From positions 496,001 through 560,000 of the forward strand of contig NZ_QICB01000001.1 of the NCBI RefSeq assembly GCF_003725295.1: a DNA stretch of 64,000 nucleotides, written 5' to 3'. The notes under the pieces are model-generated. The model ran no database searches, was not told the origin of the DNA, and worked only from the letters and a program-made list of their open reading frames with translations. Below are positions 55,402 through 64,000 of this stretch, piece after piece. The position numbers were made by a program, and so were the translations under genes. This DNA comes from Slackia faecicanis (GTDB taxonomy: Bacteria; Actinomycetota; Coriobacteriia; Coriobacteriales; Eggerthellaceae). Numbering within the stretch: position 1 is the stretch's first letter; every line of letters starts with the position of its first letter.

Positions 55402-56616
55402 TTATTCGCTGATTTTGACAACGCCCTGCTCGGCGAGCTCGCGCACCTGCTCCTCGGTGTAGCCGGCCCTGACCAGCACATCGATGGTGTCGCCGCCCTG
55501 ATGCGGCATCGGACGCCACACCTGGCCGGGGTTGTTCTTGAACTTCGGGAACACGCCCAGACCGTGGAAGGTCTCGCCGTCGGCGGTCTCCCAGTCGAGC
55601 CAGTTGCCGCGAAGCTTCATGTGCTCCTGGTTCGGCAGGTCTTCGAGGTCGTTGATCACCTGAGCGGCGATGCGGTGAGCAGCGAAGTCCTCTTCGATCT
55701 CGAACTTGGAGTGCTCGAGGCAGTACTTCTCGAATGCAGCCTGGATCTCGTCGGCGTGCGGATTGGACAGCCAGAGGCCGGAGGTGTCCTCGGGGATGTC
55801 CTCGGTGCCCCAGAGGTGGCCGAGGCCGATGGTCTCCAGGAAGTGCTTGTTCTGGTCGACGCCGTAGAGGCAGACGCCCAGGAAGCCGTCGTTGCACTCG
55901 AACTCGCCGATGCCGCAGAGGTTCTGGTTGCGGGCGCCGGGACGAGGCCACTTGACGCCGTCGTTGAGGTAGTCGACCAGGTAGTACTGACCGATGGCAA
56001 GCAGGGTCTCGTACATGGCGAGGTCGATGGACTCACCCTTGCCGGACTTCTCGGCCTTGTAGAGAGCGGCCATCGTGGAGAAGCCGATCATCAGGGTGTT
56101 GAAGTAGTCGCCGGCGTAGGGTCCGGGCAGCATGGGCTGCTCGGGGGTGCCGTTCTGCATGATGATGCCGGAGTAAGCCATGACGGTCAGGTCGTAAGCG
56201 GCGCGCTTGACCATCTTGGGGTCGCCCTCCTGGCCGAAGCCGGAAACATGGACGATAACCATCTTGGGATTGAGCTCCCACAGGACATCGTCGGTGATGC
56301 CCTTACGAGCCCACGTGCCGCCCTTGGAGGCCTCCATGAAGATGTCGGCATCCTTGACGATCTCGAAGAAGGCCTTCTTGCCCTCTTCGGAGAAGTAGTT
56401 GATCGAGACGGAACGCTGGTTACGACGCTCGGCCTGCTTGACGTTGGCGGTGTCGCGGATGGTGTCGCCTGCGCCCGTGTTCTCGAGCCAGATGACATCC
56501 GCACCCCAGTCAGCCATCAGGTCGGCGGCCTTCGGGCAAGCGAGCTCGACTGCAGCGTAGACGACCTTGACGCCATCAAGAGGGCCGAAGGACGGTTTTT
56601 CGGTAGGAATTGCCAT
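55402..56616 (-). CDS. caiB: Class III CoA-transferase (CaiB-like)
   Basis: 404 residues from ATG 56616, the size of E. coli CaiB (405). The N-terminus LDGVKVVYAAVELACPKAADLMADWGAD, split as LDGVKVVYAAVELACP and ADLMADWGADVIWLE, is the usual CoA-transferase opening. Asp170 in PYAGDYFNT aligns with the catalytic Asp of the family (Asp169). It moves CoA from gamma-butyrobetainyl-CoA or a like product to fresh substrate. GAG and AAG codons dominate. It sits between the caiA- and caiC-like genes, with 95-100 base gaps. Confidence 0.87.
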   Translation of the reverse strand: MAIPTEKPSFGPLDGVKVVYAAVELACPKAADLMADWGADVIWLENTGAGDTIRDTANVKQAERRNQRSVSINYFSEEGKKAFFEIVKDADIFMEASKGGTWARKGITDDVLWELNPKMVIVHVSGFGQEGDPKMVKRAAYDLTVMAYSGIIMQNGTPEQPMLPGPYAGDYFNTLMIGFSTMAALYKAEKSGKGESIDLAMYETLLAIGQYYLVDYLNDGVKWPRPGARNQNLCGIGEFECNDGFLGVCLYGVDQNKHFLETIGLGHLWGTEDIPEDTSGLWLSNPHADEIQAAFEKYCLEHSKFEIEEDFAAHRIAAQVINDLEDLPNQEHMKLRGNWLDWETADGETFHGLGVFPKFKNNPGQVWRPMPHQGGDTIDVLVRAGYTEEQVRELAEQGVVKISE

Positions 56617-56651
56617 GATAGACACGACCTTTCTTATATCCAGGCGGGTTC

Positions 56652-56678
56652 GGAGGGGCGGCATACGACCGCCCCTCC
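56652..56678 (-). repeat. Hairpin between the caiA- and caiB-like genes
   Basis: GGAGGGGCGG pairs perfectly with CCGCCCCTCC around a 7-base loop; no U-tract. Confidence 0.5.
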
Positions 56679-56716
56679 CCCGTCAATCCCTGAGGGTTAA
56701 GAACGATGAAGCGCTA

Positions 56717-57868
56717 TTACTGACGATAGGGCTTGATAGCGTTCTTGGAAGCGGTGAGAATCATCATCTCGTCGGTGCCGCCGGAGACGCGGTCGACACG
56801 CAGGTCGCGCCAGATGCGGTTGATGCGATGCTCGGAAGCAACGGCGATGCCGCCCATGACCTGCATAGCGTCGTCGACGACCTCGAAGGAGGAGTTGGCG
56901 CAGTAGTACTTGCACATAGCGGCGCGACCGGCGTCGACGTCGCCGCCACGGTTGTGGTCAGCGTCCCAAGCCGTCTCGTAGAGCATGTTGCGCATGGAGT
57001 CGAGCTTGATAGCCATGTGAGCGAACTTCAGGGAGTTCAGCTGGAAGCGAGCGACCGGCTTGCCGAAGGCGATGCGGGTCCAGGCATGCTTGGCGGCATC
57101 CTCGAAAGCGGAGATGGCCGTGCCGTAGTCGCAAGCGCCGACGAGCCAACGCTCGAAGTTGAAGTCGGCAACGCCGCGGTTGAAGCCGTTGCCCTCCTTG
57201 CCGAAGAAGTCCTTCTCCTCCATCTCGACGTTGTCGAGGTAGACCTCGCAGCAGGAGTCCATACGCAGACCAAGCTTGGTCAGCGGGGACAGCTTGATGC
57301 CGGGCTTGGACATGTCGACGAAGAACTCGGAGATGACATCCGGGTTGTCGGCGTCGCGGCACATGATGATGAGGTACTTGACGCCCAAGGAAGAGGTGAT
57401 GAAGGTCTTGGTGCCGTTCAGGTAGATCTTGCCGTTCTCACGCTTGTAGGTGGTCTGGAGACCGGAGACGTCGGAACCGGCGCCCGGCTCGGTGCAAGCG
57501 GAGTTGACGACCTGCTCGCCGGTACCCAGGTACTTCAGGCAAGCTTCGATCTGCTCTTCGGTGCCCTCGCGGACGATGGTGTTGTAACCGGTCAGCAGAT
57601 AGAGAACGTAGGTCGGAGCGCCGTACTGGCCCAGGACCTCGTAGATGGCCATCAGAGTGGTGAGGGGCTCCTCGAGACCCAGACCGCCGTGCTCCTCGTC
57701 GAGCATGATGCGGTCGAGGCCGAGCTCGCACAGGCCCTGCGTCCAGCGCAGAGGATACTCATGCTTCTCGTCGCACTCATGGAAGTAGGTCTCCCAGTTT
57801 TCGCTCTCCATGTAGTCGCGGTAGGATGCAACGATAAGCTCCTGCTCGTCGGACAGATTGAAATCCAT
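56717..57868 (-). CDS. caiA: Acyl-CoA dehydrogenase family reductase (CaiA-like)
   Basis: 383 residues. From memory it is close to E. coli CaiA throughout: [49 protein letters not shown] and [12 protein letters not shown]. The place of the catalytic Glu in ordinary dehydrogenases (Glu-Gly-Thr) reads Gly-Gly-Thr, as I recall for CaiA. FAD enzyme that reduces crotonobetainyl-CoA to gamma-butyrobetainyl-CoA with electrons from FixABCX; fixX and fixC lie at the right end of the window. This is the gene that most strongly points to a carnitine-type pathway. Start ATG 57868, after AGGAGG. Confidence 0.9.
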
Positions 57869-57974
57869 GATAACCTCCTGTTTGCTATAAGGATTTCCAC
57901 CAGCGCCCCATCTGAGGGAAGCGCGCTGATACCAAAAGGGTTTCTATGCGGCCGCAGCGGTCCGCCGAGCCGCG

Positions 57975-58943
57975 CTAAGCGCGGCGGGTCTTCCAGAATT
58001 CGGCGCTGTGCTCGATGCACTCGGTAGCGGCGTCGAGCATGCGGGAGTAGTGGACGAACGCGTGGAGCACGCCGTCGAAAACCTCGAACTGGTTATCGAT
58101 GCCGTTGTGCGTCAGGACGCGCGAGAGGCACTCGCTGTCGTCGCGCAGCGGATCGAGGCCGGCAGCGGCGATGTAGCACGGAGCCATGCCGGTCTTGAGG
58201 TCGTTGGACAGCATGTCGACGTAAGGAGCGCTCGTCTCTGCCTCGAGGTCGTTGAGCCAACACTGGTTGTAATAGACCAGGTCTTCCTTGCGCATGCCGT
58301 CGATATCCCAGCCGTAAAGGCGACGGGAAACGGAATCCACCAGGCCGTAGAAGCCGTAGTAGAGAAGCAGGGACTTGACGAAGGAGTTGTCGCCCTCCTC
58401 GTCGCGCAGCCACAGGTTGGTGGCCATGGACAGGACCGCTCCGCCGGAGTCGCCCGCGAAGGACAGGTCGTTGCCGTCGATGCCGCGCTCGGCACCATGC
58501 TCATGCAGGTACTTGGCGACCAGGGCGCATTCCTGGATGTTCGCAGGGTACTTGGACTCGGGAGACAGATGGTAATCGACGCTCACGACTGCAGCGCCCG
58601 TGCGGTCTGCCAGGATGCGGCAGACGCGGTCGTGCGTGGCAGGGCTGCCCACGACGAAGCCGCCGCCATGAATGAACTCGATGACAGGAAGCTTCTCGGC
58701 CTCTACTGGATAGTAGAAGCGGGCGGTGAACTCGCCCTTCGGGCCCTCGAAGACGACATCCTCGGTCTTAGCCATGACAGGGCCGCCCTCGTTCCAGAAA
58801 CCGCGCTCCTTGATGTAGTTGGCGCGCATTTCCTCGAATCCCACGTCGGTGACGAACGCGTCGCCGGCAAGCTCGGCCGATTTCTGAAGAACGGCCTTCA
58901 TCTGATCGTTCATGAGAGACATTGCGTCAAGTTTGTTTTCCAT
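57975..58943 (-). CDS. HSL-family esterase/alpha-beta hydrolase
   Basis: About 322 residues; ATG 58943 is nine bases after AAAGGA (an ATG at 58949 is too close). The oxyanion motif is HGGGF (about residue 93), the nucleophile Ser166 is in GDSGG, the acid is in GLDPLRDDS and the His is in LHAFVHYSRM. The family hydrolyses short acyl esters. No cai operon I know carries it. Inside this operon it could release carnitine from O-acylcarnitines or choline-type esters before CoA activation (inference). Confidence 0.83.
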   Translation of the reverse strand: MENKLDAMSLMNDQMKAVLQKSAELAGDAFVTDVGFEEMRANYIKERGFWNEGGPVMAKTEDVVFEGPKGEFTARFYYPVEAEKLPVIEFIHGGGFVVGSPATHDRVCRILADRTGAAVVSVDYHLSPESKYPANIQECALVAKYLHEHGAERGIDGNDLSFAGDSGGAVLSMATNLWLRDEEGDNSFVKSLLLYYGFYGLVDSVSRRLYGWDIDGMRKEDLVYYNQCWLNDLEAETSAPYVDMLSNDLKTGMAPCYIAAAGLDPLRDDSECLSRVLTHNGIDNQFEVFDGVLHAFVHYSRMLDAATECIEHSAEFWKTRRA

Positions 58944-58985
58944 GAGCATAAGTCCTTTGCGTACATCGGAAAAGTTGTATGGGAG

Positions 58986-59010
58986 GTGCGGGGCGGGAAG
59001 CCCCGCACCG
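58986..59010 (-). repeat. Hairpin between the MFS and esterase genes
   Basis: GGTGCGGGGC pairs with GCCCCGCACC around a 5-base loop; no U-tract. Confidence 0.5.
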
Positions 59011-59097
59011 TATTCGTCGAATCGGATTCGGCGTGAATCCGGCGAAGGGAACCGGGCCGGCCGCCGACGATGACGGCCGACCTACGCGAAGCGCTGA

Positions 59098-60375
59098 CTA
59101 GGCGTTCTTCGCGGCAAGATGCTTCTTCACGGTGCGCAGGCACATGAAGAGGAAGAAGACGCCGGCAACTGCGAAGACAGCCTCGATCGCGAAGATCATG
59201 TTGTAAGCAGCGTCGCCGGAAGCGTCGATCATGCCGCCATACCAGGTGTGGATGAAGATGTCCGGGCAGAAGCCGATGACGGACAGCAGACCTGCGGCGG
59301 TACCGAAGATGCGCATGGGGATGCCCAGCTCGGACAGCGGCGAGGAGCCGATGGAGAAGGCGCCGTAGGTGGCGAAGCCGAAGACGACGACCAGGCAGAC
59401 GGCGACGATGGCCATGCCGGGATCCTGCGGCAGGAAGATGAACACGCCGAGGATGACAAGAGCCAGAACCAAGCAGCCCATGATGGTCTTGGTGCTCTTG
59501 ATGCGAGCAGCGATCACGCCGAGCACGGGGCCTGCGAGCAGGCCGATGCCGTAGGTACGGATGAGGCCGACGACGTTGACGAGGTTGGAGTCGGTGCCAA
59601 GAGAGGTGAGGTACGGGGTGGTGTAGGTAGCGCCCTGGTAAACCGTATACACGCAGAAGTATGCGAGGCAAGCCCAGATAACACCCGGAGTCTTGATGGC
59701 CTCCATAGCGTCGGCGACGCTGAAGCCCTTGGCATCCTTGTTGATCTCGCCCTTGAAGTCAGGCATGAAGATGTAGGAGAGCACGCCGAGCAGCGCGATA
59801 ACGACGCCCAGGAAGATCAGGACAGCCTGGATGCCCTGGGAGGGCACGGGGATGGCGGCGACGATAGCCGCGTTGATCAGACCGAAGACCAGGCCCACAG
59901 CACCATAGATCGAGTAGCTGATACCGATCTTGGTGGGATACTCGTCCTCTTCGCAGCAGAGACGAATGACCTTGAAGCGGGTGCCCCACCAAATCAGGAT
60001 GGAGGTGATACCCATGCCGCCGAAGAGCACGTAGCACATGGTGACGGAGGGCAGGGTGGCGTAGACGAAGGTCAGGATCGCGGTGCCGAGGAAGCCCCAC
60101 GTTGCCAGGGTGCGCATGCGGAACTTGTCAGCAAGCACGCCGGAGGGCAGGTAGAACACGACGGCGGCGATGCCGTAGAAGGACACCATGGCGCCGAGGT
60201 CGGCGTTGGTGCAGCCGAGACCCTGCATCAAGGGCTCGTAGAACACGTTCTTCAGATACATCGGAGTATAGATGATGGAAGAACCCATCGAGATGAGGAT
60301 GATCAAGAACCACTTGTGGATACCGGTCAGGTCCTTGTACGTCACCTCGCCCTTGCTCTTAGCAAGAAAAGACAT
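59098..60375 (-). CDS. MFS transporter heading the cai-like operon
   Basis: 425 residues from ATG 60375 (GAAAGGG upstream). Twelve helices; motif A is LPSGVLADKFRMRTLA and helix 5 has SYSIYGAVGLVFG. It resembles anaerobe MFS carriers found beside catabolic gene sets, not the BCCT carrier CaiT. As first gene of the operon it is the best candidate importer or exchanger for the pathway substrate and product. Codon use is optimised like its neighbours. It diverges from the LuxR-type regulator gene across 560 bases. Confidence 0.85.
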   Translation of the reverse strand: MSFLAKSKGEVTYKDLTGIHKWFLIILISMGSSIIYTPMYLKNVFYEPLMQGLGCTNADLGAMVSFYGIAAVVFYLPSGVLADKFRMRTLATWGFLGTAILTFVYATLPSVTMCYVLFGGMGITSILIWWGTRFKVIRLCCEEDEYPTKIGISYSIYGAVGLVFGLINAAIVAAIPVPSQGIQAVLIFLGVVIALLGVLSYIFMPDFKGEINKDAKGFSVADAMEAIKTPGVIWACLAYFCVYTVYQGATYTTPYLTSLGTDSNLVNVVGLIRTYGIGLLAGPVLGVIAARIKSTKTIMGCLVLALVILGVFIFLPQDPGMAIVAVCLVVVFGFATYGAFSIGSSPLSELGIPMRIFGTAAGLLSVIGFCPDIFIHTWYGGMIDASGDAAYNMIFAIEAVFAVAGVFFLFMCLRTVKKHLAAKNA

Positions 60376-60935
60376 GTGATTTCCCTTTCTCAAATATCCG
60401 CGGATAAATGGCCGCGGAATTCCCAACATCCCCATCCATGCTTAGAGAGGTCCCGGTGCCGCGCCTCGCACACACATACATATAAGTTGGCGTTGCGCGA
60501 TACTCGAAGAAAAGGAGACCTCTATAAGGACTCGCGGGGGATGAGACCGCCATGAAGCGATCAAGTCGTTTCGGCCCCTTCGCCGATTTGTTCGCGCCTC
60601 CTCTCGCGGGAATGTCGTCTCGTGTCTCCTCGGATGTCGTCCATGGAGACATGCGGATCAGATGTGGATATCTTGTGCTTGCATGGCCCGTCCTGCCATC
60701 GCGTAAATGCCGCTAAAAGAGCTTTACTCAACTTGATGGGAGCATTCTTAAGACATGTACTCAAAATCAAGTGATAGATTGACCTTGGGAAATCTGTCAT
60801 TATTGATTTCTGCTTTTTAACGGTCCCCCGAAACGCCGCATACCTAAATCTGCGATAAACACCGGATCCGTTGCACAAAATAGATTGTTTTTATCTATGT
60901 TATGCTCATATCTGTAACTGGGAGAAAGGCTTGGA
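60376..60935. other. Divergent control region of the cai-like operon and its regulator
   Basis: 560 bases. The right half is AT-rich and holds ACTTGAT (60731-60737) inverted against ATCAAGT (60766-60772), and ATAGAT-N7-ATCTAT (60880-60898). Both are candidate operators for the regulator. No consensus promoter was found for the operon, in line with activator control. No gene seen. Confidence 0.5.
60880..60898. promoter_or_regulatory. Candidate operator before the LuxR-type gene
   Basis: ATAGAT and ATCTAT form an inverted repeat with a 7-base T-rich spacer, about 40 bases before the regulator start. Confidence 0.35.
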
Positions 60936-62380
60936 ATGGGAGAGTCAAGCGTGAAGGAAGCGCTGCTTTCATCGGAAAATCGGGAGCAGGTCGGGCTGCA
61001 TTACTTAGGCATCAGCCTCATTCTGGCATGGTATTACTGCCTTTGGTTCACGCCGAACTTCTTCACGTCCACGACGATAACCGACAACGCCGTCACCTTT
61101 TCATGGCTTTCCACCCTGGCCCTGACAGGCGCCGCGTTCCTCGTGACCCCCATGATCTTCAAGAAGATCCATTTCTACGATCATCAGAAGGCCATCCTCG
61201 TGGTCGCAGGCATCATGAGCGTGGCGACGTTCGCATTCGGCGTGCTCGCCTTCACACTGGCGTCTCCGCTGCTCGGGCTTCTGGTGTTTCCGCTGCTGTT
61301 CGCAGCCTGCAACGCCGTGTTCTGGGTGGCATGGGGCGAATTCCACGCGCGACGCAAATCAAACTTCTCGCTGAGCAAGTTCGCATTCATCTTCGGAAGC
61401 GTCATGCTCGTCGCGATTACCGTATCGTCGCTTCTACCGCACTACGTGGTCGACGTATTCGTCGCGCTGTTCCCGCTCGCAAGCGCATTCGCCTATATGA
61501 AAGAAAACGCCGAGCTGGGCGACCGCGAGCTTCCCACGCTTCTGCCCAAGGCCACACGCGCAAAAACGTCCAAGGCGACTGCGGTCATCTCCGTGGTGAT
61601 TTTCTTCACCTGCGTGGGATGTTATTTCAACATCGCGATCATCCCCGTGGATGACCTGCTGCCCGAGGGCCTGTCGTATGTGATAGGCATCATGGGCGCT
61701 GCAGTCATCTGCCTTGCCATCGCGATCGTGCAGAAAGTCATGAAACGCAATATCGCGTCGTATCGCCTGCTTCCGTGGCTTGTGGTGACATGCATCGTCG
61801 CCCTGGCGGTGTTCGTCAATGCAAATTCCAACTACTTCGACTTCTCATTCGTCATCACCGTGACGCTTGCAGGCGTGTTCGAGGTGTTCTTGATCGCCTA
61901 CTTCGGAGCCCTTGCCAACAAGGGGCACCTCTCCCCCGTCTTCGCATTCGCCATTTCGAGCGCCATCGTTCGCCTGGGCTTCTTCGCCGGCGACGCATGG
62001 GCCGTTGTATACGAGCACAACGCATTTTTAGCGGATAATTTCACCGAAGGCACGTCCCTCGTGCTTTTATGCGTGCTTGCCGCCATGCTGGTCCCGCTGC
62101 TGCATAAAGAAAATACGCTAGTGCAGCTCACGCAGGCCCGTCCGAGATCGAAGAGGTGTGCGACGCGGCCATCGAGGAGTTCTCGCTCTCCAAGCGCGAA
62201 GGCGAGATCCTGAAGTATATCGCACGCGGCTACACGGTCGACAACATCTCGAAAAAGCTCGTCATTTCGCCGTATACCACGCAGACCCACGTGCGCCACA
62301 TCTACTCGAAGATGCACGTGCACAAGCGCAGCGAGCTGCTCGACTACATCAACATGCACCGCGGCGACAACAACGATTAA
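60936..62380 (+). pseudogene. LuxR-type membrane regulator, HTH domain out of frame
   Basis: ATG 60936 with GAAAGGC upstream opens a frame with about 12 hydrophobic helices (residues 20-395), the sensor layout of MFS-like LuxR regulators common in Eggerthellaceae. After VQLTQA near 62135 it changes to an Arg/Ser-rich nonsense tail ending at 62213. In the -1 frame an intact segment PSEIEEVCDAAIEEFSLSKR continues into a complete LuxR HTH (EGEILKYIARGYTVDNIS; TTQTHVRHIYSKMHVHKR) ending at 62380. One missing base near 62134-62143 would explain both. It could be a true mutation, a sequence error, or a programmed -1 shift. Its neighbours suggest it activates the cai-like operon. Confidence 0.85.
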
Positions 62381-62400
62381 CCCACGAAGGCTTCGCACGG

Positions 62401-62432
62401 GCCGCCCGAGGATTCTCGGGCGGCTCTTTTTT
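62401..62432 (+). terminator. Terminator after the LuxR-type gene
   Basis: GCCGCCCGAG-GATT-CTCGGGCGGC followed by TCTTTTTT. Confidence 0.88.
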
Positions 62433-62904: not shown

Positions 62905-63210
62905 CTAGCCGAAACGGTACTCGACGCCCATCGTCGGCTGCGGGTTCTCCCACTTCTCGACGATCGTGTCGCCGCATGCGATGCGGCAGGTGCCGCACTC
63001 GAGGCAGCCGGCGTAGTCGAAAGACTGCTTGCCGTCCTCGTCGCGCTTGTACAGCGCGGCCGGGCACACGCGGATGAGCTTATCGAACTCGGCGGGGTCG
63101 CACGCCTCGGCGCCGCCCTTGAGCTCGATGTGCGCGTTGGATTCGTCGACCTCGTATTTGTTCAGAGACAGGTACTCGTCGACGTTCACCGTGAATTTGA
63201 TGTCACTCAT
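62905..63210 (-). CDS. fixX: FixX, ferredoxin-like protein
   Basis: 101 residues from ATG 63210, which overlaps the fixC stop (ATGA). A CLECGTCRIACGD motif gives Cys69, Cys72, Cys75 and Cys79, with Cys49 before Pro, as in FixX/ETF-quinone-oxidoreductase ferredoxin domains. It accepts electrons within the FixABCX complex. In enterobacteria fixABCX serves CaiA, and its place next to the cai-like genes supports the same use here. Last gene of its operon, before a strong terminator. Confidence 0.94.
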   Translation of the reverse strand: MSDIKFTVNVDEYLSLNKYEVDESNAHIELKGGAEACDPAEFDKLIRVCPAALYKRDEDGKQSFDYAGCLECGTCRIACGDTIVEKWENPQPTMGVEYRFG

Positions 63211-64000
63211 AGTGCCTTCATCGCTCCTCGAACGTCTTTGAACAGGTTCATCATGCCCATGCCCTTGACGATAGGCATCATGGATTTCTTCATCGGGCCG
63301 ACCGGGGTGCCGTCGACGACGAACATGGTGTTCATCATGTCGCGCATCATCTCGGGGTAGCCGCAGAACATGCGGTCGAAGTTCTCCATGAACGCGGGAA
63401 CGTTCTTGAACTGACGCATGTCCTTCATGACGAAGGAGTCCTCCAGGGCGTCGATGTAGCACTTCAGGCCCGCCTTGGAGGTGTCGCCCGCGTCAAGCGC
63501 CTTGACGGCGGCCTGACCGGCCATCTGGCCTGCGGCGACGGCGTAGTCCATGCCGCGCACCGTGTAGCCGAGGTTCACGCACATCGTGGCGTTGTCGCCT
63601 GCGATGAGCACGCCGTCGGCGGTCAGCTCGGGCATCGTGGTGATGCCGCCCTCGGGAACCATGTGGCCGGAATGCTCGACCAGCTTGGCGTCCTTGAGCA
63701 CGGGAGCGACCTCGGGACGGTTCTTCAGATCCTCGAGCATCTGATACACCGGGACGGTGGCCTTCTCGGCGGTCGCCTCGATGCCCGCGACGATACCGAT
63801 GGAGATGGAGTCCTTGTTGGTGTAGATGATGCCGCCGCCGAAGGTGCCATGGGTGCAGTCGCCGGCGAACAACCACGCGGCGCCCTCGCCCGGGTTGCAC
63901 TGGAAGCGCTTCTCGATCTCTTCCTCGGGAAGTTCGAAGACCTGCTTCACGCCGACAGCCATCTGGGAGGCGGGAACGCGCTTGGCGCCCACGGCCTGCT
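63207..64000 (-). CDS. fixC: FixC, flavoprotein (C-terminal part only)
   Basis: About 264 C-terminal residues; the gene continues beyond the right edge. The visible part includes VPEGGITTMPELTADGVLIAGD, seen as GGITTMPELTADGVLIAGDN, with the second FAD-binding GD, then GYTVRGMDYAVAAGQMA, and the ETF-QO-like middle domain GDCTHGTFGGGIIYTNKDS. FixC is the membrane-linked or bifurcating flavoprotein of FixABCX. fixA and fixB are expected just outside the window on this strand. Met-rich near the C-terminus. Confidence 0.92.
   Translation of the reverse strand, partial: QAVGAKRVPASQMAVGVKQVFELPEEEIEKRFQCNPGEGAAWLFAGDCTHGTFGGGIIYTNKDSISIGIVAGIEATAEKATVPVYQMLEDLKNRPEVAPVLKDAKLVEHSGHMVPEGGITTMPELTADGVLIAGDNATMCVNLGYTVRGMDYAVAAGQMAGQAAVKALDAGDTSKAGLKCYIDALEDSFVMKDMRQFKNVPAFMENFDRMFCGYPEMMRDMMNTMFVVDGTPVGPMKKSMMPIVKGMGMMNLFKDVRGAMKAL

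Follow-up and report, generated by a model that had tools for sequence, protein, structure and literature searches.

A ten-nucleotide deletion separates the sensor and DNA-binding domains of a membrane LuxR regulator in Slackia faecicanis

A membrane LuxR regulator read in two frames

The window analysed here, a stretch of 64,000 nucleotides from Slackia faecicanis (contig NZ_QICB01000001.1, positions 496,001 to 560,000), carries on its forward strand a LuxR-type membrane regulator whose sensor and GerE/LuxR half are read in two different frames. The sensor frame runs from an ATG at 60936 to a stop at 62211-62213 and encodes 425 aa, of which the last ~25 residues are out of frame. Its original part, the N-terminal membrane sensor (60936-62129, + strand), is 95% identical to residues 1-398 of an intact 484-aa orthologue (L003, the sister gene), and the remainder (62130-62213, +) forms a foreign tail reading TQARPRSKRC...ARS. 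The DNA-binding half follows in the -1 frame (62144-62380, +) and comprises a full GerE domain in profile searches (Pfam PF00196; 60 bits, E=1.7e-16, cut-off 23.5). A start scan identified GTG 62156 as the only in-frame ATG, GTG or TTG near the beginning of this half, and the frame from there to 62380 encodes 74 aa. Hydropathy peaks in the sensor support a polytopic membrane domain of uncertain exact helix count; an AlphaFold model of the intact orthologue, of low confidence (pLDDT 56), contains 12 long helices, from 13-36 to 371-400. A hairpin with a T-run, resembling an intrinsic terminator, lies directly 3' of the regulator (62399-62426, +).

Divergent from the regulator is an intact operon on the minus strand. 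Its first gene encodes an MFS transporter (59098-60435; PF07690) that is 98% identical in L003, followed by an acetyl-esterase-like alpha/beta hydrolase (57975-58949; NF007547 above cut-off), a CaiA-type crotonobetainyl-CoA dehydrogenase (56717-57868; NF002885, 657.8 bits, cut-off 540), and a CaiB-type L-carnitine CoA-transferase (55402-56664; NF002914, 673.8 bits, cut-off 413), the last two models being curated equivalogs for CaiA and CaiB. On the other side, and convergent with the regulator, are a FixX-like ferredoxin gene (62905-63183, -; NF011993 below cut-off), which is conserved in L003-L006, and a FixC-like flavoprotein gene (63207-64000, -; partial matches to NF007450/NF007542) that crosses the window end and reaches its full length past the edge. 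The placement of the regulator beside a divergent caiB-caiA-esterase-MFS operon is kept in five relatives, four from Slackia and the more distant L007; no fix part was detected in the stretch of L007 that was compared. The locus resembles enterobacterial cai/fix systems in having CaiA and CaiB models above cut-off and fixX- and fixC-like genes close by, but differs from them in that an MFS carrier and an esterase join caiA and caiB. The enterobacterial carnitine regulator is CaiF, whereas the regulator in the window is a membrane LuxR protein. A search of the literature for Slackia carnitine genes found nothing specific.

Between the regulator and the operon lies an intact 21-nt block, CAGATGTGGATATCTTGTGCT (60659-60679, +), whose 17-nt core is shared without a mismatch by four other Slackia species, although the surrounding intergenic regions have diverged. 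Allowing up to 3 mismatches, the genome contains a single copy of the block, and we regard it as a candidate operator or promoter element on the basis of this conservation. Another conserved intergenic block, TTCGGCCCCTTCGCCG (60570-60585), is located upstream of the MFS gene and might form a short hairpin. The operon enzymes (55402-60435) are up to 97-99% identical across Slackia species, compared with ~60% for the sensor domain (60936-62131); between the window and S. piriformis, for example, CaiB is 97% identical and the sensor 59%. This combination of conserved enzymes and a diverged sensor suggests either that the sensor evolves fast or that the enzyme genes have been exchanged.

Loss of one repeat unit in the linker codons

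We aligned the junction between the two halves with the intact orthologues L003, L004, L005/L010, L006/L011, L007, L013, and L014, the last two coming from other genomes of the genus; identity over the sensor is 95% for L003, ~60% for L004, L005, and L006, and 37% for L007. Compared with every one of these sequences, the window is shorter by exactly 10 nt at 62130/62131 (+), with a placement ambiguity of ~1 nt. In L003, the junction reads CTCA-CCCAGGCCCC-CGCAGGCCCG-TCC and forms an imperfect 10-bp tandem repeat; removal of one unit yields the window junction, CTCACGCAGGCCCGTCC, with zero further changes. Of all direct repeats in L003 measuring 7 nt or more, this one has the shortest period. 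It encodes the linker QAPAGP, situated between helix 12 and the HTH domain according to the low-confidence model that sets the helix boundaries. The first-pass annotation had placed the break in the linker between sensor and DNA-binding domain and had predicted a restored chain of about 480 residues. The alignment bears out the former, and the 484 aa of the intact orthologue agree with the latter; the break falls in the linker because the repeat is made of linker codons. That annotation was also right about the split itself, but attributed it to a single base, which seemed enough to restore the frame because a loss of ten is equivalent to a loss of one modulo 3. A one-base indel at the C run is ruled out by the 10 additional nt in all aligned orthologues. 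We infer that slippage during replication caused the deletion.

A search of 140 genomes of the family (full-length matches at E<=1e-40) yielded 41 full-length matches, spread over 36 other genomes, all with sensor and HTH in one frame, and a split at the linker was found in none of them, leaving the window copy alone in this respect. It had been envisaged that all relatives might carry the same shift; no relative examined does. Two of the full-length relatives (G014:C10:21520-22905 and G084:C4:6456-7859) have a single in-frame TAG inside and are possible independent pseudogenes. Across the regulator and six neighbouring genes, the 10-nt deletion is the only indel relative to the sister, and a protein-level check of ~26 kb revealed no other clearly broken gene.

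Substitution patterns bear on the age of the event. The HTH half differs from L003 by 12 synonymous and 0 nonsynonymous codon changes (dS 0.30, dN 0), and the sensor shows a dN/dS of ~0.06. Had the HTH been unconstrained since the split from the sister, the window branch should have accumulated roughly 27 nonsynonymous changes; by the same rough reckoning, this half can have evolved free of constraint for no more than about the final 11% of that branch. The break is therefore very recent, unless, as is less likely, it reflects an error in the assembly.

The same genome contains a second regulator of this type as a 295-aa remnant (G000 contig 5, ~64226-65113; L002 1396-2283, -), in which the initial part of the membrane domain runs directly into the end of the HTH owing to an in-frame deletion (..VGVRTHIRHVYEKTQMHKK..). 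Its counterpart in the sister species (G007 contig 12; L058 ~1000-2099) is partial, has frame breaks, and adjoins a second CaiB-like CoA-transferase gene; this disrupted paralogue was counted apart from the 41 full-length matches. As the second regulator is disrupted in both the genome and its sister, loss of such regulators is already under way in the lineage, and for the regulator in the window a genuine pseudogene is therefore easier to credit than an error.

Relation to known regulators and competing readings

The regulator belongs with the 10-12-TM LuxR activators of Coriobacteriia, of which DadR, HcdR, and CadR have been tested in Eggerthella lenta with Slackia named as a genus whose genomes carry over 10 of them each (Dong et al, 2022; PMC9734109). 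In agreement with this family, it combines an N-terminal 12-helix membrane domain, a short linker, and a C-terminal PF00196 domain within ~480 aa, and its gene stands beside metabolic genes that it presumably controls. The neighbours differ, being carnitine-type CoA enzymes here rather than catechol dehydroxylases. The window copy also departs from the family in that the 10-nt deletion has split it, whereas family members have both domains in one chain; it is thus a broken copy of a member rather than a working one. Specifically, the PF00196 domain, the predicted 10-12 TM helices, and the metabolic-gene neighbourhood are present, and the single chain is not. DadR is inactive without its DNA-binding part and, although expressed, also without its TM part (DadR(deltaTM)), and it keeps partial function with a shuffled linker (PMC9734109). 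A literature search for frameshifts in 10-12-TM LuxR regulators found nothing specific.

Several other readings of the split were weighed. The organism might possess an intact gene, with the assembler having collapsed the 10-bp repeat or taken a minority variant. A short tandem repeat is a place where such a collapse could happen, and the dN of 0 in the HTH means that by every measure the event is recent or absent. However, loss of one 10-nt repeat unit is atypical of base-calling errors, and the tandem stretch spans ~20 bp, whereas ordinary reads and assembly k-mers are longer than that. The assembly (2.0 Mb in 20 contigs) is 97.66% complete with 0.07% contamination, and neither the indel-free neighbouring genes nor the surrounding ~26 kb point to poor sequence quality. 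The sequence error proposed in the first-pass annotation is accordingly unlikely, and much less probable than a real deletion. Its suggestion that the two parts are made separately, with the HTH translated from GTG 62156 as a 74-aa GerE-like regulator uncoupled from the sensor, fares worse. Bacillus GerE is a stand-alone HTH protein of 74 aa, and the orphaned frame matches such proteins in size and fold class; its GerE domain is complete and perfectly conserved, and the 58-nt frame overlap could permit coupling. Unlike GerE, this frame arises from a recent frameshift and lacks evidence of a start or function of its own: L004-L006 have GTC and L007 has ATC in place of GTG 62156, which has no good Shine-Dalgarno sequence at proper spacing and is followed 58 nt downstream by the sensor-frame stop. 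The fused state of 41/41 full-length relatives and the inactivity of the expressed DadR(deltaTM) protein (PMC9734109) also argue against a separately started HTH, which we consider improbable.

Mechanisms that would preserve or periodically restore the fused protein are less probable still. Programmed ribosomal frameshifting would require a shift of -1, as is the case here, in the region where the frames overlap (62108-62213), but this overlap contains no slippery heptamer of the form X_XXY_YYZ, and only one genome carries the break, for which a simple deletion suffices as an explanation. With no such heptamer and unbroken relatives, a programmed -1 frameshift gene was rejected, and ribosomal restoration of the fused chain has next to no likelihood. 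Reversible phase variation, in which gain and loss of the 10-bp unit would turn the regulator on and off, draws on the presence of two imperfect units in the sister and one in the window, and on a repeat period not divisible by three. Against it, the repeat occurs in L003 only among the relatives read and is absent from L004-L006, the single unit left after the loss does not make back-slippage easy, and a single OFF allele was seen. We therefore give very little credence to phase variation, and just as little to its corollary that the linker repeat is a contingency site toggling the coupling of sensor and DNA-binding domain, with gut populations in which carnitine users that can be induced would be mixed with others that cannot (or that are constitutive, having the HTH only).

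Probable consequences for the regulator and the neighbouring operon

The reading that we consider probable is a recent 10-nt slippage deletion that has produced a likely null allele of a local activator and left the operon uninducible in this strain. The gene is the Slackia orthologue of a 10-12-TM LuxR regulator divergent from the caiB-caiA-esterase-MFS operon, and according to this model slippage at replication would have removed one unit of the imperfect tandem repeat in its linker codons. The resulting frame shift leaves the GerE DNA-binding domain cut off from the membrane sensor. The sensor half, ending in ~25 foreign residues, could then not bind DNA, and the HTH half would lack a good start and be unresponsive to the signal, so that the split allele is most likely null and its activator function lost. 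The perfectly conserved HTH speaks against this model insofar as it would be equally expected of an HTH that is still functional. That the regulator controls the cai-like operon we infer from the gene order shared with relatives, the conservation of the intergenic block, and the known role of the family. The operon enzymes and the candidate operator are intact, and induction would be lost in the strain. Among the three readings offered in the first-pass annotation, loss of control over the cai-like operon is the best supported, given that the family consists of local activators, that enzymes and candidate operator are intact, and that the frameshift parts the sensor from its DNA-binding portion.

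Most likely, the case represents ordinary recent pseudogenisation, by a neat mechanism, of a member of an already described regulator family. If true, it would illustrate how repetitive linker codons can make such regulators prone to loss, and it would amount to a naturally occurring knock-out within a regulator family that is large and little studied. In gut Slackia, it would also tie one TM-LuxR regulator to the candidate operator CAGATGTGGATATCTTGTGCT and to a carnitine-type operon in a way that can be tested.
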